The notes under the pieces: model-generated
Seen by the model: only the letters and a program-made list of their open reading frames with translations
What the model was told of the DNA's origin: nothing
The model's database searches: none
Assembly: GCA_028278625.1 (NCBI GenBank)
Contig: JANQDY010000044.1
Span: 1-11,817 of the forward strand
Source: Thermodesulfobacteriota bacterium
Lineage (GTDB): Bacteria > Desulfobacterota > DSM-4660 > Desulfatiglandales > Desulfatiglandaceae
Direction of reading: 5' to 3'
Length of the DNA stretch: 11,817 nucleotides
Made by a program: the position numbers and the translations under genes
In this document: positions 55 to 11,817 of the stretch, one piece after another
Position numbering within the stretch: position 1 is the stretch's first letter
Layout: each line of letters begins with the position of its first letter

Positions 55-3000
55 ATGATATGTCCAAAATGCCAAACTGAGCTTCCTGAGACAGCCAACT
101 TCTGTCTCAAGTGCGGACAACGGCTGAATACCGGGGAGCAAACTTCTGGGTTCAGCCCTATTCCTGATGCAGAACGAAAACGTGTCACGGCGCTTTTCTC
201 CGATCTAACCGGTTATACGGCTATGACTGAACAGCTCGACCCTGAAGAAGTCAAGGAGATCATGGGCCGAATATTTGATGGGGTAAAAGCAGTCGTCAGC
301 AAATACGATGGGTTCATAGAGAAGTTCGCGGGCGACGGAGCTCTGGCACTATTTGGTGTACCCAGCGCTCACGAGGACGACCCCATAAGGGCCATTGAGG
401 CTGCACGGGAGATTCACACGTTGGTTGAGGCATTGAACCCTCGTTATGAGAACAAGGTAGGTCATGCTCTGTCGATGCACAGCGGAATAAATACGGGTCT
501 CGTTGTTACAGCGGATGTCAATCTGGAAAAGGGAACTCACGGTGTCACTGGTGAGGCCATTAATGTAGCTGCAAGGTTAACTGGGCTTGCCGAGGCGGGG
601 GATATTCTGGTCGGGCTGGATACTTACAGGGCATCTCAGGCTCACTTCACTTTCCAACCCTTGAAACCGGTAAAAGTAAAAGGCAAATCTGAACATATCC
701 CGATCTACAAAGTACTTTCAAAAAAGGCTGCAACTGCTCGCATCAGCCGGGGTGTGCAGGTCTCTTCGGAAATGGTTGGCCGTGATCAGGAGCTTGCAAA
801 ACTGGAACTCCATATACTGAAGGCCGTCAACGGCCAGGGCTCCGTGGTCAACGTCTTTGGAGAACCGGGAGTAGGCAAATCCAGACTGTTGGCAGAACTA
901 AGGCAGCGGGACGTGATTAGCAGAGTCAGCATCCTGGAAGGCCGTTCAATCTCTATCGGGAAGAATCTGAGCTTCCACCCAATCATCGATCTTTTCAAGC
1001 AATGGGCCAGGATAAAGGAGGACAATACACAGGCTGAGGCCTCTAGAAAGCTGGAAACCAACATCCGCCGCGTATGTGGGGATGAAGCAGACGAAATATT
1101 TCCCTTTGTGGCGACTCTTATGGGGATGAAGCTCTCGGGTAAACATTCCCAAAGGGTTGAGGACATAGAAGGTGAGGCCCTGGAAAAACTAATCTCGAAG
1201 AATGTGCGGGAGCTCCTGATCAGGTCTTCGGAACGTATTCCCTTAGTGATTGTTATGGAAGACCTTCATTGGGCTGACACGACCTCGCTGGAGCTTCTTG
1301 AATCGCTCTTTCGTTTGACCCAGACTTCCCGCCTTGTATTCATCAATGTCTTTCGTCCCGGATACTGGCAGGGGGATGACAGAAAAGTCGAAAACTTAAC
1401 CGAATGGCTTCCCAAGGCCGATTTTGCTGAGATTGGCATAAGGCCGTTAAACAAGCAAACGAGCGAGACCCTGGTAAATAACATGTTGCAGATCAAGGGG
1501 CTTCCATACACGGTGAAGCACCGGATTGTAGACAGGGCCGGCGGTAATCCGTTCTTCATGGAGGAGATTGCACGTTCGCTTATCGATGAAGGAGCAATCG
1601 TACGAAAAAATGGAGCCTTTGAGGTCACCGAGAAGATTGATCATGTGGTGATCCCATCAACCATCAACGATGTTCTCACGGCCAGAATAGACCGATTAGA
1701 AGAACAAACGCGAGACCTCATTAAGGTCGCATCGGTAATAGGAAGGAGCTTTTTTGACAGGATATTGAAAGAAGTAGCCACTTCCATCGAAAGCATTGAC
1801 GATCGGCTTGCATATCTCAAGGACGCTCAATTTATCCGAGACCGCATGAGGATGGAAGAACTGGAGTACCTGTTCAAACACGCCCTGGCCCAAGAGGCCA
1901 CCTACGAATCCACGCTCATACAGCAGCGCAAAGCGCTTCATGGAAAGGTAGCCCAATCCATTGAGAAGATTTTCCAGGAGCGCCTTCACGAATTTTACGG
2001 GATGTTGGCATTTCACTACAGCAAAGCCGACGACCAGGAGAAGGCCGAGGAATACATGGTTAAGGCTGGGGACGAAGCACTACGGTCTTCTGCTTCGGGC
2101 GAAGCCCTGCAATACTTTCAGGAAGCGCTGAAGCTCTATCTTGCTAAATATGGCGATGATGCTGATCCAGAAAAACTCACCAATTTCGAAAAAAATATTG
2201 GTATAGCGCTTTACAACAAGGCGCAATGGCAGGAGTCAGTAACGTATTTTGACTCCGTGTTGGCACGGTGGGGGACACCGTTGCCCAAAAGAGGTTTTTT
2301 GGGGACGCTGAAGCTTGCGTGGCATCTGCTCTTATTGATTAAAATGATTTACTTGAAGTTCCCTAATTCAAAGAAGACACCGGGGGACCGGGACTTGGAA
2401 ATAATTGAGTTGCGTTCAAATGTGGGAATTGCGCTCGCATTTCTGGACCATATCAGGCAGTTCCAGGTTGCGATGGCCATCTTGAAATACATGACGAAAT
2501 TCGATTTATCCAAAACCCCCAAAGTATCTGGTAACTGTGCCGCAGTGGCCAGTGTCCTTACCCTTAGTGGGTTGTCCTTTAAGCTGAGCAACAGGCTGTT
2601 GGAAGTTTCAAAACAATATATAGTTGCAGAAAATATTGGGGACCGGATGCATTATGTTTGCTTCAGCACTATGGCTTATCATTGTCAGGGCACTTGGGGA
2701 AAAATCAAGAGACTGAATGTGGATCTATTGAATTCTTCATTGAGAATTGGTGATTTTTGGCACACATCAATGTACCTGTATTTTTATGCCCTTGTGAAAG
2801 GGGAACAAGGGGAGTTCGGACATCTCTTGAAGGTGGTAGATAAATTGTACGAAATCGGAGAGACCTATGACTATCCTCTGGCCAATATTAATGCTCAAGT
2901 ACTAAAAGCAGATTTTCTAATCAAGGCGCGAAGTGCCCATGAGGGGATGTCGGGGGCCGAACAAGGGATTTCGTACTCTCGAGAGAAAGGTACCGAACTT

Positions 3001-3588
3001 CAAGAAATAATGTTCATGGGTTTTAAAGTGGAAGCACAACATCGGGCGGGAGATGTGGAAGGAGCGCGTGACTCGATATCTCTAGCATCGGAAATCTATG
3101 AAAAACACACGTTACGGATCATGCCCGTTATGTTGGCCCCCTATATGACAGCACGTTTCTTCGTTGCTGTTGAGCAACTAAATCACCCAACCCGTTCCGT
3201 CACTTCCTCGGATGTGGCGCATATCCGAAAGCACGCCTATAACGCCGGCAAAGCGGCGGTGCGGAATTCTAAAAAATATGCACCTTACAGAACCAAAATC
3301 TTAAGACTGATGGGCCTTTATTACTGGCTCATCGACGAGCAAGGAAATGCCCTTAAATGGTGGGGCAGGACCATAGAAGAGGGTGAGAGGCTCGGCGCAA
3401 GGCCTGATCTTTCTCGAACATATTTCGAAGTGGGAAAGCGGTTGTTGGAACCACAAAGCAAACACAAAAAATTGAATGGAATAGATTCCAAAGGCTACTT
3501 TGAAATAGCTGAAACACTGTCTCGTGAAATGAATTTGGAGAGGGACCTCGAAGATTTGAATAGGTTTAAAATAGAGCATGGATTGTAG
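55..3588 (+). CDS. Zinc-ribbon / class III nucleotide cyclase / STAND ATPase / TPR-like signalling protein
   Basis: Predicted cytoplasmic multidomain signalling protein of 1177 residues. An N-terminal zinc ribbon has C3, C6, C17 and C20. A class III adenylate/guanylate cyclase domain follows at about residues 40-220. It keeps the two metal-binding aspartates (D50 in FSDLTGYT, D94 in FAGDG), a lysine at K90, and the N170-x3-R174 pair (INVAAR) of the catalytic site, so it looks active; ATP versus GTP use cannot be told. An AAA/STAND-type ATPase begins near 240, with Walker A GEPGVGKS at 269-276 and a Walker B-like segment ending MEDLHWAD (about 397-408). The rest is helical and probably TPR-like, a protein-interaction or sensing region. 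The ATG at 55 has an AGGAAAAG ribosome site at 41-48. No membrane segments are evident. This architecture is common in bacteria, but the trigger and target are unknown. No partner gene follows, only decayed sequence. Confidence 0.9.
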   Translation: MICPKCQTELPETANFCLKCGQRLNTGEQTSGFSPIPDAERKRVTALFSDLTGYTAMTEQLDPEEVKEIMGRIFDGVKAVVSKYDGFIEKFAGDGALALFGVPSAHEDDPIRAIEAAREIHTLVEALNPRYENKVGHALSMHSGINTGLVVTADVNLEKGTHGVTGEAINVAARLTGLAEAGDILVGLDTYRASQAHFTFQPLKPVKVKGKSEHIPIYKVLSKKAATARISRGVQVSSEMVGRDQELAKLELHILKAVNGQGSVVNVFGEPGVGKSRLLAELRQRDVISRVSILEGRSISIGKNLSFHPIIDLFKQWARIKEDNTQAEASRKLETNIRRVCGDEADEIFPFVATLMGMKLSGKHSQRVEDIEGEALEKLISKNVRELLIRSSERIPLVIVMEDLHWADTTSLELLESLFRLTQTSRLVFINVFRPGYWQGDDRKVENLTEWLPKADFAEIGIRPLNKQTSETLVNNMLQIKGLPYTVKHRIVDRAGGNPFFMEEIARSLIDEGAIVRKNGAFEVTEKIDHVVIPSTINDVLTARIDRLEEQTRDLIKVASVIGRSFFDRILKEVATSIESIDDRLAYLKDAQFIRDRMRMEELEYLFKHALAQEATYESTLIQQRKALHGKVAQSIEKIFQERLHEFYGMLAFHYSKADDQEKAEEYMVKAGDEALRSSASGEALQYFQEALKLYLAKYGDDADPEKLTNFEKNIGIALYNKAQWQESVTYFDSVLARWGTPLPKRGFLGTLKLAWHLLLLIKMIYLKFPNSKKTPGDRDLEIIELRSNVGIALAFLDHIRQFQVAMAILKYMTKFDLSKTPKVSGNCAAVASVLTLSGLSFKLSNRLLEVSKQYIVAENIGDRMHYVCFSTMAYHCQGTWGKIKRLNVDLLNSSLRIGDFWHTSMYLYFYALVKGEQGEFGHLLKVVDKLYEIGETYDYPLANINAQVLKADFLIKARSAHEGMSGAEQGISYSREKGTELQEIMFMGFKVEAQHRAGDVEGARDSISLASEIYEKHTLRIMPVMLAPYMTARFFVAVEQLNHPTRSVTSSDVAHIRKHAYNAGKAAVRNSKKYAPYRTKILRLMGLYYWLIDEQGNALKWWGRTIEEGERLGARPDLSRTYFEVGKRLLEPQSKHKKLNGIDSKGYFEIAETLSREMNLERDLEDLNRFKIEHGL

Positions 3589-3636: not shown

Positions 3637-3939
3637 TTGGGATTTCCCTTTAACACTGAGAAGTACAATCGAAGATTAACCGCCATCTTTAACGCAGATG
3701 TAGAAGGCTACAGCCGTTTGAGGGATGATGAGGATGCAACAATCCGCACCATCACGGCTTATCGAAAAGCGATAACGGATCTTGTCCATAAATATCGTGG
3801 CAGAGTTGTCGATTCCCCAGGGGACTTGGATGCTAACGAAAACAGAACCAGTTGTGCTAATCGCCACGGAACCGGTGATTGCGCGTTGCTCTGTAGGTTT
3901 TGGAAAACACAGTGGAAAAGTAGAGGCAGTGTTTTCTAA
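3637..3939 (+). pseudogene. Truncated class III cyclase remnant (N-terminal part only)
   Basis: The first ~63 residues resemble the start of a second cyclase subfamily: RRLTAIFNADVEGYSRL carries the first metal-binding aspartate, followed by a TYR-type helix and RGRVVDSPGD with the second. In relatives this GD is followed by a stretch such as NLLAEF and then the rest of the domain. Here homology stops at about position 3825 and the frame runs into unrelated residues, ending at TAA 3937-3939. The N-x3-R catalytic pair and any effector domain are absent, so the piece cannot be an active cyclase. The only start in reach is a TTG at 3637 with no convincing ribosome site. It differs from the cyclase just upstream (no zinc ribbon, different sequence), so it is not a simple partial duplication. 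It is most likely a deletion relic. Confidence 0.7.
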
Positions 3940-4963: not shown

Positions 4964-5123
4964 CTCTTTTCCGAAATCACACGTCCAATGCGCCGTGTTT
5001 TCCTGTGGCCTCACTCCGCAATTTGTAGTATTCTTGTATGACTTTTCTTTCCCGTTCTGTCACACCCTTGCTTTGAAACAGTCGTTATTTGTAGCGATGG
5101 AACCTCATAAAGGAGAAGAAATA

Positions 5124-7355
5124 ATGGTTGAGTTTCAAAAGACAAGTTGCGGCCTCTGTTTGCAGAGTTGCGGTCTGGAGGTTAAGGTCGTGGACAACCG
5201 GATCATCAAAGTCCGGCCCGATAAGGAGAATCTAAGGTCCCAAGGGTATGTTTGCCGTAAAGGGCTCAAAATTGCCAATTTTCAGCATCATAAAGAACGG
5301 CTGGAACACCCTTTGAAAAGGACATCCGGCGGCTTTGAGCATGTCTCTTGGGAAACGGCGCTGGGGGAAATCAGTCACAAGCTTAAAACAATTCTGGAAA
5401 AATACGGACCGGAATCCCTGGCCCTCATGGCCGGTGGCTCCGGCGGATGTCAACTGGGCGGCCGCTTTGGAGGGCGACTTCTTTTCAGTCTCGGCAGTAA
5501 ATACCTGTACACGGCCCTGGGTCAGGAATGGACCGGACGGCATTATGTTCGGGGCCGGATTTATGGCAACCAGACGCTGTTTCATCATCCGGATCATCAT
5601 CGAACCGAAGTGCTTCTGGGGCTGGGATGGAATGGATGGTCCTCCCACGGCATGCCCCAGACCCGGCGTTATCTGAAGGCCATCAGCGAAGATCCGGACC
5701 GCCATCTCATTATTGTCGATCCACGGCCGTCTGAAACGGCCCGTTATGCGGACATCCACCTGGCCTTGACCCCCGGCACCGACGCCTTGCTGCTGAAATC
5801 CATGATCGCCATTATTTTGAAGGAAGGGTGGCAGAACGATGCCTTTATCCGCAACCATACCCGCGGCTTGGATAAGGTATTCGCCGCATTGGATGGGTTC
5901 CCCATTAAAGATGCCCTCTCGGTTTGCGGCCTTGATGTCGGTCAGGTAAAAGACGTGTGCCGTCTCTTTACCAGCCGCAAATCCGCCATCATGTCCGATC
6001 TGGGGGTGCTCATGAACCGGCATTCCACCCTGGTCAGTTTTCTGGAAGAGGTCCTTTTGGCCGTTTCCGGGCGAATCGGTGCCAGCGGCGGGAATGTCTT
6101 TACCGGAACCTTAAGCCCCATGGGAATCCATACGGACACCGATGATCCCGCCACCTGGCGGACCAAATCGACCGATATTCCGGCCATTATTGGAATTTTT
6201 CCTCCCAATGTTCTGCCGGAGGAAATCGACTCGGACCGGCAGGACCGGATTCGGGCGGTCATTGTTACAGGCGCCAATCCATTAAGATCCTATGCGGATA
6301 CCAAGGCCTATGAAAAGGCCTTCAGAAACCTGGATCTACTGGTTGCAGTCGATGTGGCGTTCACGGAAACCGCGGCCCTGGCCCATTATGTCCTTCCCAG
6401 CAGAACCGCTTACGAATCCTGGGACTGCAGTTTCTGGAGCTTCAATTTTCCGGAAGTCTTCTTACAGCTTCGCAGGCCGGTGGTAACCGCCGCGCCGGAT
6501 ACCAGGGAATTGGGCTGGATCATGACGGCCCTGGCCAAAAACATGGGGGTGATGCCTTCTGTTCCCCAGTCCCTCAAAAAGGCGGCAGAAGGCGATCTGG
6601 AGGGTTTCGCCCGTCAGTTGGAGGAGTACATCAAAACCAATCCCGATGGATTGTTGAAACTGCCTTTTGTTCTGGCCGAAACCCTGGGAAGCGTCATGGG
6701 CTCGCCCCACCTGGCCTTTATGTGGGGCCTCCTCTGGTCGGCCCCGGACCCCTTTAAGGAAGCCATGGCCCGGGCCGGATACCCGCTGGGGCCGGATCAG
6801 GCCGGAAAAATCTTGGAGGCCGTCCGTCTAAACCGTCAAGGAATATGGCTGGCGCTTTTGGAGTCCCACAAGAATCTCGATGTTGTGAAGAACCGTTTGA
6901 TCGACTTTCATGCCCCGGAACTGCTGGACTGGCTGAACCAGGTGACGCCCCAATCCGAAATTCACGCCTTATCCATGGACCTGGAGTTTCCGCTGGTAAT
7001 GATGGCGGGATGGCACATGGACAGCAATGCCAACACCCTCATGCGGGATCCGACTTGGAACAAGGGCCGCAGGGTCGGCTGTCTGGCCGTTCATGGGGAT
7101 GATGCGGAAAACCTGGGTCTTTCTGATGGCGCCAAAGCGCTATTGACCACCCAGGCCGGTCAGGCCCAGGTGACAGTACAAATAAGCCCGCTCACCCGGC
7201 CCGGCATGGTCTTGATGCCCCACGGTTTCGGCCTGGATTTTGATGGCGAAACGGTCGGGGTCAATGTGAACGATTTAACCGATGCAACACACCGGGACCC
7301 CCTGGCGGCCACCCCTCATCATCGCAGGGTCCCCTGTCGTCTGGAAAGGATTTGA
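5124..7355 (+). CDS. Molybdopterin (bis-MGD type) oxidoreductase with N-terminal [4Fe-4S] site
   Basis: A 743-residue member of the DMSO reductase / formate dehydrogenase superfamily. The [4Fe-4S] motif is C9-x2-C12-x3-C16-x27-C44, followed by R45-K46-G47; the Lys is the usual electron-relay position. Core molybdopterin-binding segments follow, including VLLGLGWNGWSSHG, LIIVDPRPSETARYADIHLALTPGTDALL and VIVTGANPLRSYAD. A C-terminal molydop-binding domain runs from about residue 620 (FPLVMMAGWHMDSN) to the end. The start is the ATG at 5124, preceded by AGGAGAA at 5111; the longer open frame from 4995 has no ribosome site and a non-conserved leader. There is no twin-arginine signal, so it is probably cytoplasmic. 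There is no in-frame UGA, and no cysteine in the region where a Cys/Sec metal ligand is usually found (around YTALGQEWTGRHYV). The substrate is unknown. Convergent with the ferredoxin-like gene, which could be its electron partner. Confidence 0.9.
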   Translation: MVEFQKTSCGLCLQSCGLEVKVVDNRIIKVRPDKENLRSQGYVCRKGLKIANFQHHKERLEHPLKRTSGGFEHVSWETALGEISHKLKTILEKYGPESLALMAGGSGGCQLGGRFGGRLLFSLGSKYLYTALGQEWTGRHYVRGRIYGNQTLFHHPDHHRTEVLLGLGWNGWSSHGMPQTRRYLKAISEDPDRHLIIVDPRPSETARYADIHLALTPGTDALLLKSMIAIILKEGWQNDAFIRNHTRGLDKVFAALDGFPIKDALSVCGLDVGQVKDVCRLFTSRKSAIMSDLGVLMNRHSTLVSFLEEVLLAVSGRIGASGGNVFTGTLSPMGIHTDTDDPATWRTKSTDIPAIIGIFPPNVLPEEIDSDRQDRIRAVIVTGANPLRSYADTKAYEKAFRNLDLLVAVDVAFTETAALAHYVLPSRTAYESWDCSFWSFNFPEVFLQLRRPVVTAAPDTRELGWIMTALAKNMGVMPSVPQSLKKAAEGDLEGFARQLEEYIKTNPDGLLKLPFVLAETLGSVMGSPHLAFMWGLLWSAPDPFKEAMARAGYPLGPDQAGKILEAVRLNRQGIWLALLESHKNLDVVKNRLIDFHAPELLDWLNQVTPQSEIHALSMDLEFPLVMMAGWHMDSNANTLMRDPTWNKGRRVGCLAVHGDDAENLGLSDGAKALLTTQAGQAQVTVQISPLTRPGMVLMPHGFGLDFDGETVGVNVNDLTDATHRDPLAATPHHRRVPCRLERI

Positions 7356-7379
7356 GGGTTCTTAACCCTCAGGTTTTTG
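7353..7379. terminator. Shared hairpin terminator between convergent genes
   Basis: A perfect 8-base stem (TGAGGGTT at 7353-7360, AACCCTCA at 7364-7371) with a three-base loop is followed on the plus strand by GGTTTTTGG. The TGA stop of the oxidoreductase forms the first three bases of the stem. The TAA stop of the opposing gene (7362-7364) spans loop and stem. It is a plausible intrinsic terminator for the plus strand. The minus-strand side lacks a clear T run, so bidirectional use is uncertain. Confidence 0.65.
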
Positions 7380-8480
7380 GTCCGCGTACCAATGGTTCAT
7401 CCATTCCCTCGCATTCAGGGGCGGATCAATGGTCTCCTCGCGATGTGTCAGTATGAGGGATTTTGTGGGGCATTTGTATACGCAAACGCCGCAGCCGATG
7501 CATTTGTCAGGGATAAGTTCGGCAACCATTCCCTTTTTGTTGGTTGATTTTGCGCTTGTGGCCAGGGTGAAGGCTTCCATGGGGCACCGCTCAACACACA
7601 AGCCGCAGGCCTTGCAGGTTTCGGGGGTGGTTCGAACACGGTAGTTGGACACATCGTGGCTCTTATTGTGCTTGAGCACATGATAGGCTTCAAAAAAAAG
7701 GCAGCAACACTTGCAGCAGTTACAGATGGTATCCGCACCCTCCTGCCAGTTGCTGATGGCATGAACCAGACCTGATTCCGCCGATTCCCTGAGGATTCCT
7801 TTGGTCTCCTCACGGGTGATCTCCCGACCCAGGCCGTTATCGACAATGTAGCGGCCGAGCCTGCCGAAATGAAGACATACATCCAAAGGATGATCACACA
7901 CCTTGGCATCGGAATCGAAACGCTTACGCTGTCGGCACGGGCAATGGGATACGGTGCAATAGTCCTGAGTTTCAACGAATCTCACCACATCCTCATAGGG
8001 GAGGATTCTGCGGGGATCCTGAACCGTCCTGTGAATGGGAATGGTCCTTAGTCCTTTTACGTGGGCGACTTTAAACTGATCCATGAAACCGTCGTAGAAA
8101 TACTTGTTGAGGGGCCGGGCCGTGGTTCTGGTGGCCTCATCCGGTTCCGCCGCCCAGTAGGGGCCCCGCAGCAGAACGAAGAACGAATCATTGAGGCTGT
8201 ACCGGATCGATTCGCCCTTCTGACTCCGCCAAACCGCACCCCGGCGGGCAAGCGCGTCCAGTTTCAACGCCAGGATTTCCGGTGCCATTCCTTTCTTTTG
8301 AGCCAATTCTTCCAGGCTCCTCCCTGAAAAGGGCATTCCGGTCAAAAGATCCGCTTCCTCAGGGGTATAGAAAGACTGTATTGTGGGCATCAGGTGTTTT
8401 GATTCCGGAAGTCCCCACCACGCTTTTCTAAGCCAGGCGATCAGTGCTTCGTAACGCGCTTTTTTTTGTAAGTCAGTCAT
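7362..8480 (-). CDS. Cysteine-rich 4Fe-4S ferredoxin-like protein
   Basis: A 372-residue soluble protein, probably an electron-transfer or Fe-S redox protein. Residues ~35-95 look helical, with a possible winged-helix-like section (FSGRSLEELAQKKGMAPEIL, then a Leu-rich helix). The middle has Y174-C175-x4-C180-x-C182, then C195 and C202, then the unusual run C253-x-CC-x-CCC (253-260). The C-terminus has two classic [4Fe-4S] motifs: C289-x2-C292-x2-C295-x3-C299-P and C327-x2-C330-x2-C333-x3-C337-P. The start at 8480 has GGAGGAG five bases upstream on the minus strand; an upstream in-frame ATG at 8501 lacks this. No signal peptide or membrane span. It resembles 4Fe-4S dicluster proteins of anaerobic deltaproteobacteria with the same CPCR and CNCC-type signatures. 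The role of the central cysteines is unknown; they could bind a further cluster. Confidence 0.88.
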   Translation of the reverse strand: MTDLQKKARYEALIAWLRKAWWGLPESKHLMPTIQSFYTPEEADLLTGMPFSGRSLEELAQKKGMAPEILALKLDALARRGAVWRSQKGESIRYSLNDSFFVLLRGPYWAAEPDEATRTTARPLNKYFYDGFMDQFKVAHVKGLRTIPIHRTVQDPRRILPYEDVVRFVETQDYCTVSHCPCRQRKRFDSDAKVCDHPLDVCLHFGRLGRYIVDNGLGREITREETKGILRESAESGLVHAISNWQEGADTICNCCKCCCLFFEAYHVLKHNKSHDVSNYRVRTTPETCKACGLCVERCPMEAFTLATSAKSTNKKGMVAELIPDKCIGCGVCVYKCPTKSLILTHREETIDPPLNAREWMNHWYADQKPEG

Positions 8481-8502
8481 TGGCTCCTCCAAGAGAAACA
8501 AA

Positions 8503-8641: not shown

Positions 8642-8671
8642 TTGACATTGGCGCCTTATGATGATAAAGGC
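8642..8671 (+). promoter_or_regulatory. Candidate promoter/operator of the DtxR-family gene
   Basis: A perfect TTGACA at 8642-8647 is followed by GATAAA at 8663-8668 (15-base spacer, a weak -10). The core is covered by an inverted repeat with 5-base arms, GCCTT (8653-8657) and AAGGC (8667-8671), enclosing ATGATGATA. Iron and manganese repressors often bind AT-rich dyads overlapping their own promoter, so autoregulation is a reasonable guess. No exact Fur, IdeR or MntR box is recognised. Confidence 0.35.
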
Positions 8672-8698
8672 TTCAAACAATCTTAGAAACTCTTAACG

Positions 8699-9280
8699 AT
8701 GATAGAAAAAATGGCCAATAAACAGCAAAACACTCTGGCAGAAAAACCGTTGACTTCCGCAATGGAGGATTACCTGGAGGCGATTTTTGATCTGGACCAG
8801 CAAAAAAAGGTGGTTCGGGTCAAAGACATTGCCAAGCGCTTAAACGTCAAAATGCCCACGGTGACCAGCATGCTCAAAACCCTAAGCAAACGGGGAATGG
8901 TCCATTATGAAAAATACGAGTATGTGGAACCCACCCGGGAAGGGGCCAAAATAGGAGAAGAAATGCGTCGCAGGCATGGCGTTCTTGCCAGGTTTCTGAC
9001 CGATATCCTCAAAATCGATGCGGAAACAGCGGATGATGAAGCCTGCAAAATGGAACACTCTCTGAGTGCCGAAACCCTGAGCAGTCTGACCGACTTTATG
9101 GCTTTCATACAGGTATGCCCCCGGGTTGGCGAGAACTGGCTGGAACATTTCGATGAGTATCGACGGAATCAATGGACACCGGAGAAATGCATTGCGGAAT
9201 CGGAAGCCTTCTCCTGTGAATTCATCAAACGTACCCATGATTTGAAGAACCTCTCGGAGCCCAAAAACGAAAACGACTGA
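8699..9280 (+). CDS. DtxR/MntR-family metal-dependent transcriptional regulator
   Basis: A 193-residue cytoplasmic DNA-binding repressor. A winged helix occupies residues ~18-80 (SAMEDYLEAIF, then RVKDIAKRLNVKMPTVTSML as recognition region) and the dimerisation/metal domain ~85-135. Compared with Bacillus MntR, D24 and E27 match the D8/E11 metal ligands and H93 matches H77. C116, E119 and H120 sit at the E99/E102/H103 site; the cysteine there is the DtxR/IdeR (iron) form. The protein lacks the C-terminal SH3/FeoA-like domain of long DtxR proteins but has an extra ~50-residue tail with C140, C164 and C173. The start at 8699 or the internal ATG at 8711 are both possible; neither has a strong ribosome site. 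feoA lies downstream in the same direction, so it probably controls iron uptake, sensing Fe(II) or Mn(II). Confidence 0.88.
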   Translation: MIEKMANKQQNTLAEKPLTSAMEDYLEAIFDLDQQKKVVRVKDIAKRLNVKMPTVTSMLKTLSKRGMVHYEKYEYVEPTREGAKIGEEMRRRHGVLARFLTDILKIDAETADDEACKMEHSLSAETLSSLTDFMAFIQVCPRVGENWLEHFDEYRRNQWTPEKCIAESEAFSCEFIKRTHDLKNLSEPKNEND

Positions 9281-9310
9281 AGGCACTCGTATTTATTGAT
9301 AAAAGCAGCG

Positions 9311-9349
9311 CCCCCCTGATGGAGAATCCTTTCGGCGGGGACTTTTTTT
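9311..9349 (+). terminator. Intrinsic terminator after the DtxR-family gene
   Basis: A bulged stem-loop can be drawn: CCCC pairs with GGGG, then CTGA with TCGG (one wobble), then GGA with TCC around a GAA loop. It is followed by AC and seven T residues (9343-9349). It lies about 30 bases after the TGA at 9278-9280. It separates the regulator from the genes downstream unless it is read through or regulated. Confidence 0.65.
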
Positions 9350-9365
9350 GAGACTGCAGTTAGAC

Positions 9366-9683
9366 ATGCAAAACAAGTATAGAACCCTAAAACCATTGCC
9401 AAAGATGGATGCCTTGCTAGAGATCGACCAACGCATTCAAGACCTGCATACAGTCATCGAAGCCCATCGTGAATGCGTCTTTTCCATTCTCGGACGGGGG
9501 GAAAAGGGACGAGAAGCGGAAAGCCGCAGCCACAGCGGGGGGCCATGGTCCAGGGAGCAACAACTCAAGAAAGCCCTTGAAGAAGCCATAGAGGTTTTAG
9601 AGGAGAGCCGCAAGGCGTTTAAATCAAAGCAGCTTGAGCGCCTGCGGAAGAAGCTCACTCGTGTCCTCATTGAAGCATATTGA
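9366..9683 (+). CDS. Small charged helical protein of unknown function
   Basis: About 105 residues if the ATG at 9366 is used. I do not recognise the family. It has two predicted helical parts: residues ~14-45, with DALLEIDQRIQDLHTVIEAHRECVFSIL; and ~63-105, rich in Glu, Lys, Arg and Leu (LKKALEEAIEVLEESRKAF, then a Lys/Leu helix). A Gly/Ser/Arg-rich linker joins them. The look is of a coiled coil or adapter. Start choice is weak: the TTG at 9348 overlaps the terminator, and the ATGs at 9366 and 9405 lack a clear ribosome site. It ends 24 bases before the GTG start of the DUF2325 gene, consistent with co-transcription. No cysteine motif; a single Cys is in the first helical part. Confidence 0.55.
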   Translation: MQNKYRTLKPLPKMDALLEIDQRIQDLHTVIEAHRECVFSILGRGEKGREAESRSHSGGPWSREQQLKKALEEAIEVLEESRKAFKSKQLERLRKKLTRVLIEAY

Positions 9684-9707
9684 TGAACCCAAAGGGAGGT
9701 GAATTTT

Positions 9708-10970
9708 GTGGAAGCAAAAGCGATTTTGGCACCCGGAACCATGAAATCACATGGGATCTGCTGCACACTTGAAACGTGTTCAGAAGACAAAGGGCCATCC
9801 AAACTCAGGTTTTGGGAGATTGACCAGTTTTTTAAATGCCCGACCGTGGGCATCTGCCTCACGCTCAAAGAGCAGAAACAAATTCTTAAAAAGGCCGCGG
9901 TTTCCGTCAAAGGAAAAAGCCCCTTTGAAATCCATGAGATCCTGGTTGGCTGTTCGGAAAAGGAGAATCGTGTCTCAAAGCAGGCGGACCGGCTGCTGAG
10001 TCGGAAGTATGGGGATGAAATCGCGCCTCTTTTGGCGCTTAGTGAAAGCGTCTTTATGGGGCGCTGGGCCGCTGATTTTCATGAGGGAAGATTCTCCGGG
10101 ACTTTTTGGGCAGCCGCCGTCAGAGCAGACCTTGGGCCTGAATCGAGAGGTCGCATCTTTGGAGACGTACACATGTCCATGCACGGTAATATTGAGCAGA
10201 GCATGCAATTCAAAAGAGAGCTTGCATTTCACCGAAAAACGGCCGCCAAAATGAGCGCCAAAGCCAAAGAAGCCCTTCGATCCAGAAAAACCCTTCAGAA
10301 AAAGAACGCACTTTTGATGGAAAACCAAAGGGATCTGCAATTTCGATTAAATACTCAGGAACGTGAAATCTGCCAGCTGAATGACCGCCTGTCGGGAAAT
10401 GCATCCTGGAAGGGTATTGAGGCACTCAAGAGTGAAAATCGACGCTTAAGGCTTGAATTGGCCTATTATGTGGAAGAGGCGGAAGAAAAAGATGCCCGGC
10501 TGGCGGATATTATGAAAGAAAACCGGCGGCTTTTGTATGCCCTGGACAAAGAGAAAGAGGCCGTCGAACGCCTTCATCGGGAACTCAAAAATTTTATCCA
10601 GGCGCCACCTTCCAACGGGTTTTGCGACCAGACATGTCCTTCATACGACCTTTGCCGAAAAAGGGTTCTGATGGTGGGAGGACTGACCAAAATGACCCCC
10701 CTCTATCGGGATGTCATCGAAGGGAGCAACGGCGTATTCGAATATCACGACGGATATATGAAAGGCGGTGCCAAGAAGCTGGAAACACGCGTCAGACAGG
10801 CCGATATGGTCCTTTGTCCGATTACCTGCAACAGCCACGCGGCTTGCGATTTGGTGAAAAAGCTGGGGAAGAAGTACAACAAGCCGGTTCGCTTATTGTC
10901 CAGTTCCAGTTTAAGCGCCATCGGGGAGGCCCTCTCGGGAAAAGGCGGTGTTTATGCGTCGAACAACTGA
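9708..10970 (+). CDS. DUF2325-domain protein with coiled coil and cysteine motifs
   Basis: 420 residues, soluble, function unknown. The N-terminus has C18/C19 and C24, then FWEIDQFFKCPTVGICL (C44, C50), a pattern I associate with DUF2325 proteins. Residues ~125-160 contain FHEGRFSGTFWAAA and FGDVHMSMHG, with H156 and H159. A long coiled coil spans ~165-295. A C306-x3-C310-x5-C316 motif leads into the DUF2325 domain at ~318-410 (VLMVGGLTKMTPLYRDVIE, EYHDG, ADMVLCPITCNSHAAC), with C370, C374 and C380. The GTG at 9708 is chosen because GGGAGG (9694-9699) lies eight bases before it; the GTG at 9699 overlaps that site. The gene sits between the small helical gene and a tiny membrane protein. Clustered Cys and His suggest metal or Fe-S binding or a redox role, but this is inference. 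Confidence 0.82.
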   Translation: MEAKAILAPGTMKSHGICCTLETCSEDKGPSKLRFWEIDQFFKCPTVGICLTLKEQKQILKKAAVSVKGKSPFEIHEILVGCSEKENRVSKQADRLLSRKYGDEIAPLLALSESVFMGRWAADFHEGRFSGTFWAAAVRADLGPESRGRIFGDVHMSMHGNIEQSMQFKRELAFHRKTAAKMSAKAKEALRSRKTLQKKNALLMENQRDLQFRLNTQEREICQLNDRLSGNASWKGIEALKSENRRLRLELAYYVEEAEEKDARLADIMKENRRLLYALDKEKEAVERLHRELKNFIQAPPSNGFCDQTCPSYDLCRKRVLMVGGLTKMTPLYRDVIEGSNGVFEYHDGYMKGGAKKLETRVRQADMVLCPITCNSHAACDLVKKLGKKYNKPVRLLSSSSLSAIGEALSGKGGVYASNN

Positions 10971-11067
10971 CATATCCCCAGTCGTCGGCTGGGCCATATG
11001 GACCGGGTGCATTGTGGCCATGGGTACCCTTTTTCTGTTCGGTTCAATATTCCGCCCGAAAGGCTGA
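10954..11067 (+). CDS. 37-residue single-pass membrane protein
   Basis: A short open frame of 37 codons ending at TGA 11065-11067. After a basic start (MRRTTDISPVVG) it has one ~20-residue hydrophobic stretch (WAIWTGCIVAMGTLFLFGS), then a short IFRPKG tail, as expected for a small inner-membrane peptide. It overlaps the 3' end of the DUF2325 gene by 17 bases in another frame, suggesting translational coupling; GGAAAAGGCGG just upstream may serve as a ribosome site. Below the size most gene callers keep. FeoB-linked small membrane proteins exist in other bacteria, but I cannot match this one. Role unknown; an accessory to the nearby transporter is a guess. Confidence 0.6.
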   Translation: MRRTTDISPVVGWAIWTGCIVAMGTLFLFGSIFRPKG

Positions 11068-11117
11068 GGGTAACGGCAAAGGAAACCGTCAAGACCAATT
11101 AATAAGGAGTGAATGCC

Positions 11118-11504
11118 ATGAGCAGTAATTTTCACATTCAATGCCAGAAACGTAACGGAAACCTCCATCTCAGGCCGAAAGGCGATTTTGACGGCACTTC
11201 CACCTGGGAAACAATTCACATGATGCGCCACATGTACGAGGGCAACGGCCGGATATATATCGACACCAGCCAACTGGGGAAGGTTCTCGGTTTTGGCTGC
11301 ACCACTTTTCGATGCTGCTTCAGGGAAGGAGGCATTCCCGCCCACCGGCTCGTTTTTCAAGGTGAGAAGGGGGGCCAATTGGCGCCCAGCGGCAGCAAGG
11401 TGCAGAGAAACCCGGAAAACCGACCCTGTGGATGCACCGGGGATTGCGCCAATTGCCTCTGCAAGATGCCGAAAAGGCAGGCTTCCGCTAAACAAAAGAC
11501 TTGA
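11118..11504 (+). CDS. Small STAS-like protein with cysteine-rich C-terminal tail
   Basis: 128 residues, soluble. Residues ~5-80 look like a STAS/anti-anti-sigma-type fold: FHIQCQKRNGNLHLRPKGDFDG begins with a beta hairpin, followed by a helix (TWETIHMMRHMY), a strand with IYIDTSQL, and a GFGCTTFRCCF segment. The C-terminal tail carries C104-x-C106-x3-C110-x2-C113-x-C115, a compact metal- or Fe-S-binding-like motif not usual in STAS proteins. The ATG at 11118 has AAGGAG at 11104-11109; the GTG at 11109 overlaps that site. It starts 50 bases after the small membrane protein stop, so the two are probably co-transcribed, and feoA lies 160 bases further on. The STAS assignment is tentative. Possible roles are metal sensing or partner switching linked to iron uptake. 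Confidence 0.7.
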   Translation: MSSNFHIQCQKRNGNLHLRPKGDFDGTSTWETIHMMRHMYEGNGRIYIDTSQLGKVLGFGCTTFRCCFREGGIPAHRLVFQGEKGGQLAPSGSKVQRNPENRPCGCTGDCANCLCKMPKRQASAKQKT

Positions 11505-11664
11505 CAAAAGAATTTGGCGTGTGAGTTAGATTTACCTCTTTTATTTAGACAGGAAAAACATTTTCGGTTGCTATAAAAGCGTTGTTTTCGGTTAACAAGG
11601 AGAGACCTTTAAAAGCGACTCAGCGGTTTTAAAACACCAGCAATCAACAGGGGAGGCCAAAACC
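11505..11664 (+). promoter_or_regulatory. AT-rich leader upstream of feoA with direct repeats
   Basis: The 160 bases before feoA are AT-rich and hold no gene. TTGACA at 11501-11506 overlaps the stop of the preceding gene; a weak TAGATT follows at 11527, spaced too far for a strong promoter. TATAAA at 11572-11577 is a good -10 but its possible -35, TAGACA at 11546, is 20 bases upstream. The 9-base repeat TTTTCGGTT occurs at 11561-11569 and 11585-11593, a 24-base period that flanks TATAAA. A separate promoter and a metal-repressor site are plausible here; no standard Fur or DtxR box is seen. Confidence 0.4.
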
Positions 11665-11817
11665 ATGACACTGGACCAACTCAAACCGGGATACAGGTGC
11701 CGGATTAAGAAACTGAAGATTCATGATCAACTGGGTCAGCGCCTTTTGGACATGGGCGTGTACCCGGGACTCACCCTAGAGGTGATTCGAAACGCGCCTT
11801 TGGAAGACCCCATGGAA
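11665..11817 (+). CDS. feoA: FeoA-family ferrous iron transport protein (5' part, cut by window end)
   Basis: Only the first 51 codons are present; the gene runs off the right edge. The sequence MTLDQLKPGYRCRIKKL followed by LGQRLLDMGVYPGLTLEVI is typical of FeoA, a small SH3-like cytoplasmic protein of about 75-85 residues that works with the FeoB Fe(II) transporter. The RLLDMGVYPG segment is the family hallmark. The ATG at 11665 has a strong AGGGGAGG ribosome site at about 11649-11656. A feoB gene probably follows outside the window. Its position downstream of a DtxR-family regulator supports iron-dependent control. Confidence 0.9.
   Translation, partial: MTLDQLKPGYRCRIKKLKIHDQLGQRLLDMGVYPGLTLEVIRNAPLEDPME

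Follow-up and report, generated by a model that had tools for sequence, protein, structure and literature searches.

An 11,817-nucleotide stretch of DNA from a Thermodesulfobacteriota bacterium (contig JANQDY010000044.1; hereafter, the window) ends in a cluster of genes that we regard, with moderate confidence, as a ferrous-iron uptake (Feo) module that is autoregulated and iron-repressed by a DtxR/IdeR-type protein and that carries lineage-specific accessory proteins. As a first-pass annotation of this DNA had it, the named genes are all found on the forward strand, beginning with a DtxR-type metalloregulator gene (positions 8699-9280; 193 residues), the product of which matches PF01325 and PF02742 at 74.5 bits each, above their cut-offs. 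This gene is followed by that of HEL (9405-9683), a small Feo-linked protein whose helical character was read from its sequence; the HEL open reading frame (ORF) opens with TTG at 9348, and because of the relatives and of a palindrome at 9359-9374 the start is placed later, probably at ATG 9405. Next come a 420-residue DUF2325 protein (9708-10970), for which the preferred start is GTG 9708 behind AAAGGGAGG, a candidate 37-residue single-helix membrane peptide (10954-11067), the ORF of which overlaps the end of the DUF2325 gene, a 128-residue STAS-like protein with a cysteine tail (STAS-Cys; 11118-11504), and the 5' part of feoA (11665-11817). The feoA gene is cut at the window end, and the incomplete product matches the FeoA domain (PF04023) at 48.7 bits, above cut-off; feoB lies beyond the window, and relatives with the same gene order do carry it. 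Contrary to the first-pass annotation, some of the gaps between the genes are not short: about 124 bp, holding a palindrome of their own, precede HEL and 160 bp precede feoA, and more than one transcript is therefore likely. No Pfam or NCBIfam family was matched above cut-off by HEL, STAS-Cys, or the 37-residue peptide, and no family reached its gathering score in an Rfam scan of the window.

Scanning of GTDB genomes with an alignment of the DUF2325 protein yielded 54 loci (755,647 bases), of which 48, judged by record titles, come from Desulfobacterota-type lineages or carry the name "Deltaproteobacteria"; the remaining six bear the titles Acidobacteriota, Cloacimonadota, Synergistaceae, Pseudomonadota, and Proteobacteria (two). 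The order found in the window, DtxR-HEL-DUF2325-STAS-FeoA-FeoB, recurs among these relatives. On the same strand and within 3 kb of the DUF2325 gene, HEL and DtxR are each present in 24 loci, STAS in 26, FeoA and FeoB each in 18, and an HD domain in six, counts that are low because many contigs end inside the cluster. Other loci, such as L033, L041, and L048, have DUF2325 without these partners, and the neighbors seen in relatives include a flavodoxin, a periplasmic binding protein, and DUF4198. Since the sample of loci had been selected by DUF2325, each part was also searched for separately in 194 genomes of one order, of which 192 encode FeoA, 90 STAS, 48 DUF2325, and 28 HEL. The first-pass annotation had proposed an accessory module for Fe(II) uptake and had beforehand made that proposal depend in part on the neighbors being kept beside feoA in related genomes, where they are indeed kept beside feoA and feoB; a common palindrome of the DtxR/IdeR type also speaks for it. 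Membership is uneven: the strongest ties to Feo are those of the regulator and HEL, and DUF2325 and STAS-Cys are optional.

The palindrome came to light in the upstream alignment of the four closest loci (the window, L001, L002, and L028), in which conserved TTAG and CTAA pieces were seen and in which TTGACA (8642-8647 of the window, forward strand), a possible -35 element of a putative promoter, was also kept. The pattern GTTAG-N6-CTAAC was then counted by spacing, with a site defined as at least 8 of the 10 arm bases. Just two sites reach 8/10 in the window, each at 8/10 and each a proposed operator: CTTAGAAACTCTTAAC before the DtxR gene (8682-8697) and GTTAGACATGCAAAAC before HEL (9359-9374). 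With the four closest genomes left out and duplicates merged, sites were present in the upstream regions of 39 of 60 DtxR, 33 of 65 HEL, 28 of 77 DUF2325, and 23 of 61 FeoA genes, versus means of 5.9, 5.7, 7.1, and 5.2, respectively, in shuffled sequence; STAS (3 of 51) and FeoB (2 of 60) were at the shuffled level (4.8 and 4.5), and spacings of 4, 5, 7, and 8 yielded 0 to 7 sites. Among the other ORFs of at least 200 residues in the 54 loci, 27 of 519 have an upstream site. A total of 48 sites in these loci reach 9/10, and 36 of them lie between 30 bp inside and 260 bp before the start of a DtxR, HEL, FeoA, or DUF2325 gene, with 12 lying elsewhere. A search of 12 genomes for exact copies of GTTAGRNNNNYCTAAC gave five places, four of them in the module, compared to 13 for a reversed control pattern. 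Co-regulation of the module genes is well supported. The fifth exact match (G006 4210933-4210948; L289) lies about 15 kb from the STAS-Cys gene of that genome, where it precedes a methyltransferase-like ORF and follows an opposite-strand ORF with a Cys-rich end.

The arrangement TTAG-N6-CTAA matches the geometry of an IdeR half-site (PMC10317159; PMC8464063), and the DtxR/IdeR operator of CCTAA repeats is matched in this half-site geometry only and not as a 19-bp box. From its position, the probable reader of the palindrome is the DtxR protein encoded beside it. That another regulator such as Fur reads the palindrome, with the DtxR protein being incidental, is highly improbable: dFUR boxes have been described at feoAB of Geobacter and Desulfovibrio (PMC545781), but the window holds a single match to the dFUR consensus (at 2338, with 3 mismatches), far from the module, and the palindrome differs from dFUR in both sequence and spacing and precedes the DtxR gene itself.

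The metal ligands of the regulator, assigned by alignment to MntR structures, are Asp24, Cys116, Glu119, and His120, and of these the last three are invariant in 28 of 28 regulators and Asp24 is present in 26 of 28; two further cysteines are conserved as well (Cys140 in 28 of 28, Cys164 in 26 of 28). The iron-type primary site Met10/Cys102/Glu105/His106 is not fully matched, since Asp24 replaces Met, with Cys, Glu, and His present. The same mixed ligand set is found in PgMntR of Porphyromonas gingivalis, in which Cys is reported to matter for Fe(II) binding and which also binds Mn (PMC4805248); iron is therefore the likely metal of the window regulator by analogy, with manganese also possible. 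The regulator thus resembles DtxR/IdeR in its two N-terminal domains, its Cys/Glu/His ligands, and the TTAG-N6-CTAA geometry, and differs in having Asp and not Met as first ligand, a single half-site in place of the 19-bp box, and no third domain, the SH3-like domain not having been found in the 193-residue protein by the Pfam scan. Its resemblance to PgMntR lies in the ligands and, for the regulators of some relatives, in a FeoA-like C-terminal domain, whereas the window regulator is without a FeoA domain. DtxR-type regulators that end in such a FeoA-like domain were observed in L031, L038, and L042. Were the regulator an MntR and this FeoAB copy an importer of Mn(II), the locus would be a manganese module. 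This is an improbable reading, to which the best NCBIfam matches (MntR models, below cut-off), the best PDB matches (MntR), the Mn-type ligand Asp24, and the discussion of Feo-like Mn transporters in PMC8749426 all lend something, but the iron-type ligand Cys116 is invariant in all 28 regulators, the palindrome has IdeR half-site geometry, and a flavodoxin and a periplasmic binding protein are among the neighbors.

HEL is a Feo-linked family, and this link, which rests on several tests, is well supported. In the 194 genomes of one order, 18 of 29 HEL hits have FeoA or FeoB within 5 kb on the same strand, as do 17 of 24 hits in a phylum sample of 345 genomes, 22 of which have a HEL hit. It should be noted that three of 27 phylum hits were left out (one in G008, a genome that the order sample included already, and two faint ones in G429 beyond the region retrieved), that L272, among the 24, fell short of the HEL threshold and was counted as a miss, and that some order-sample genomes also supplied rows of the HEL alignment. 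Any module partner within 5 kb on the same strand was found for 25 of 29 and 19 of 24 hits, respectively. The genomes listed as having HEL hold between one and seven FeoA matches each, so that a chance neighbor within 5 kb is expected, by estimate, in about 1 of 100 cases or fewer. In 6 of 29 order-sample and 8 of 24 phylum-sample hits HEL comes directly after feoB, at most 350 bp away, an arrangement not seen in the window, and it lies between the regulator and feoA in L194, L195, L196, L252, L253, L255, L258, and L264; it is placed beside Feo also where DUF2325 and STAS are absent. A database search with HEL returned at least 1415 proteins at an expectation value (E) of 0.001 or less, and among the 120 matches listed there is no Pfam domain and those with names are mostly called "hypothetical protein". 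HEL is not in the FeoC family (PF09012), as it matched no Pfam family at E 0.1 and PF09012 is not among the 25 families listed for 27 HEL members. The likeness to known Feo systems therefore lies in feoA in the window, feoB in relatives, and, in some genomes, a small protein right after feoB, like FeoC; the difference is that HEL has no Pfam family in common with FeoC and that a DtxR-type regulator, DUF2325, and STAS-Cys are present in addition.

The DUF2325 protein matches PF10087 at 85.6 bits against a cut-off of 33.6, and consists of an N-terminal Cys pair, a coiled-coil-like middle, and the C-terminal DUF2325 domain, which carries two C-x3-C-x5-C groups. Seven cysteines (44, 50, 306, 310, 316, 370, and 380) occur without exception in the 22 sequences compared, and an eighth, Cys 374, in 21 of 22. 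The nearest proteins are 60-65% identical, and those that are named come from Deltaproteobacteria, including strain NaphS2. In PDB searches only coiled coils matched the middle of the protein and nothing convincing matched the DUF2325 domain, and viral collections yielded no relatives of either this protein or STAS-Cys. A short form was found in Synergistaceae (L046), placed before FeoA-FeoB with palindromes before FeoA; among 100 genomes of the phylum of G020, three DUF2325 proteins are above cut-off and only that of L046 is beside FeoAB, so the tie outside Desulfobacterota rests on L046. As separate observations, L010, L036, and L047 have an ORF of the flavodoxin family at a distance of about 1-1.5 kb from the start of DUF2325 (Pfam-confirmed in L047 only), and a palindrome lies 31-47 bp before DUF2325 genes at loci without a Feo gene in L022 (position 1978), L049 (1625), and L050 (1236). 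Among the closest described counterparts is Cj1384 of Campylobacter jejuni, which shares the Cys-rich DUF2325 domain and is reported to be strongly induced by light stress (PMC9426514); Cj1384 has 104 residues, lies beside katA, and is regulated by PerR, whereas the window form has 420 residues with an extra N-terminal part and lies beside Feo.

In an alternative explanation, the genes form an iron-starvation regulon, and HEL, DUF2325, and STAS-Cys share only their regulation with Feo and have other jobs, such as redox defense or signaling, without contacting FeoA or FeoB. This explanation is possible yet rather unlikely. It would account for the DUF2325 genes of L022, L049, and L050, which have their own palindrome and no Feo at the locus, for the PerR regulation of Cj1384 beside katA (PMC9426514), for the flavodoxin beside DUF2325 in L010, L036, and L047, and for the C-terminal motif of HEL, which also ends two response-regulator receiver proteins (L273 4841-5758 and L274 8126-9184, both on the reverse strand) and is therefore not confined to Feo. 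It fits less well with the HEL genes that stand within 350 bp after feoB or between the regulator and feoA, unaccompanied by further accessory genes.

The STAS-like protein has, as the first-pass annotation noted, a tail of exactly the pattern CxCx3CxxCxC (11427-11462, forward strand; tail CGCTGDCANCLC). Its assignment is drawn from two comparisons. First, hhalign against eight true STAS proteins, taken from three of four genomes searched and one further (L292-L302), aligned residues 3-69 at E 8e-6 and probability 84, and HEL, used as a control in this profile comparison, gave nothing. Second, an AlphaFold model built on 30 sequences has good confidence for roughly its first 100 residues and is uncertain beyond them, in the tail, and its predicted order of strands and helices agrees with STAS. 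No STAS Pfam match was above cut-off, the best being E 0.19 (STAS_2) and 0.27 (STAS) for one member each of the 30. STAS-Cys is thus like the STAS anti-sigma antagonists in profile and fold order and differs in two respects: the switch region is replaced, with no conserved phosphorylatable Ser (in the alignment, Gly-Phe stands opposite the Ser-Ser of the true STAS proteins), and the Cys tail is added. Of the 30 sequences, 17 have the tail motif in full, five have shorter forms, and eight have none. The CxCx3CxxC spacing recurs in a Pfam-confirmed FeoB-associated Cys-rich peptide of L160 and in a candidate peptide of L034. The Cys cluster of the FeoB-associated peptides is carried by a membrane peptide, and that of STAS-Cys by a soluble STAS-like domain with no membrane segment in the sequence; this Pfam family was matched at E 0.13 at best, by 2 of 30 STAS-Cys members, which gives STAS-Cys no place in it. 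The cysteines of both STAS-Cys and the DUF2325 protein are conserved; that they bind a metal or an iron-sulfur cluster, and that they serve the Fe-S-linked control raised in the first-pass annotation, is conjecture.

STAS-Cys is fused to an HD_5 (HD-GYP-like) domain in three genomes (L018, L051, and L076/L197), an HD gene adjoins its gene in L017, L034, L172, and L202, and the L076 fusion matches an NCBIfam cyclic di-GMP phosphodiesterase model at E 5e-36, well below the model cut-off. An HD-domain gene, hdd, was placed in the Fur regulon of Desulfovibrio by Rodionov and colleagues (PMC545781). A protein search with STAS-Cys alone matched one other protein, and tail-less STAS-like paralogues, with up to six matches per genome, were seen, for example, in L070, L074, L088, L090, and L094-L099. 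In Desulfosarcina alkanivorans (L016) an in-frame TGA stands in place of the second tail Cys of STAS-Cys (11543-11545) and another TGA at an otherwise invariant Trp of the DUF2325 gene (10013-10015), and the STAS-Cys tail of L012 also has a TGA. Selenocysteine recoding was considered for L016 and dropped, as decay or truncation is likelier given the TGA at the invariant Trp. A linkage of the tail to Feo was likewise examined and is not claimed: a module gene lies within ~1.5 kb in 9 of 11 loci with at least three tail cysteines versus 9 of 19 loci with fewer (Fisher p = 0.12).

The 37-residue membrane peptide of the first-pass annotation is present as an ORF and is a possible, weakly supported gene. 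A model built from the window peptide and that of L052 found relatives in L213, L011, L214, and L047, each at a locus that also encodes DUF2325 on that strand, a co-occurrence that counts for little because the loci were mostly chosen for DUF2325; a further alignment row (L010, E 0.18 only) was added by eye. Against a model built without it, the window peptide scored E = 1.1, which ranks tenth among 19,736 small ORFs and best of the 130 in the window. A match to the peptide alignment was found in 5 of 194 genomes, and in four of these it follows DUF2325 on the same strand at a distance of at most 2 kb; three of these four are alignment rows (L213, L011/L180, and L214), and the new ones are G063, with the peptide near DUF2325, and G192, where DUF2325 is on a different contig. 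The closest two relatives that have a gap between DUF2325 and STAS-Cys share a 96-residue ORF in it (L001 3002-3292; L028 2634-2924). Elsewhere in the window, a 100-residue ORF (3637-3939), by eye resembling a cyclase fragment, directly follows a long cyclase/AAA protein (55-3588), and a gene for a 4Fe-4S protein that has an additional CNCCKCCC stretch (7362-8501, reverse strand) is convergent with a molybdopterin oxidoreductase (4995-7355, forward strand).

In the mechanism that we favor, sufficient Fe(II) would load the regulator dimer with metal and hold it on TTAG-N6-CTAA half-site operators at its own and the HEL promoters, repressing the module, and low iron would allow HEL, DUF2325, STAS-Cys, and FeoAB to be made. 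The response of the module to iron is deduced from the regulator and the palindrome, and we infer the metal, the repression, and every step after transcription. Judging from its placement, HEL would partner the FeoA/FeoB complex in a lineage-specific way, in some genomes at FeoC's place after feoB; STAS-Cys would supply a thiolate cluster like that of the FeoB-associated Cys-rich peptides and, via the HD-GYP-like partners of some species, may couple iron import to a nucleotide second messenger; and the Cys-rich DUF2325 protein could be a thiol/metal adaptor or stress sensor of the same regulon. The module would work like Feo with FeoC-type partners, with HEL not a FeoC member and the regulator not a three-domain IdeR. 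A stronger version, which we regard as tentative and less likely than not, envisages a Feo machine of Desulfobacterota's own, in which HEL is a third component that replaces FeoC, the IdeR-like regulator uses half-site operators, STAS-Cys and HD-GYP-like proteins couple FeoB activity to a nucleotide second messenger, and DUF2325 is a thiol sensor.

Several observations weigh against the favored iron-repressed uptake module. The number of palindromes in the window (two) equals that expected by chance (2.29), so that the evidence there is the positions of the sites; the window feoA has no site of 8/10; and a spacing of 10 is also in excess, with 18 of 64 regions before DtxR (versus 43 for a spacing of 6) and 13 of 66 before FeoA. 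DUF2325 and STAS are often missing where Feo is encoded and also occur apart from it, and 10 of the 30 STAS-like loci examined lack both the Cys tail and a module partner within ~3 kb. No Feo gene lies within 5 kb on the HEL strand in 11 of 29 and 7 of 24 hits, the HEL motif occurs on response regulators, and PgMntR, which has the same ligand set, also binds Mn (PMC4805248).

Feo has been called the most widespread bacterial importer of ferrous iron, with the roles of its small partners described as unclear and FeoC as absent from most lineages (PMC8749426), and according to a review most Gram-negative bacteria use Fur for iron and DtxR-type regulators for manganese (PMC10317159). No title or abstract opening describing this combination of genes was found in the literature searched, which left most subscription journals outside. 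The palindrome suggests that the Gram-negative anaerobes carrying the module may use an IdeR-like switch for Feo. Both gene position and the common palindrome connect HEL, a family without a Pfam entry among the matches listed, to Feo, and a FeoC-like role for it is therefore directly testable. Among anaerobes that are for the most part sulfate reducers, the module thus offers concrete candidates for parts that Feo is missing.

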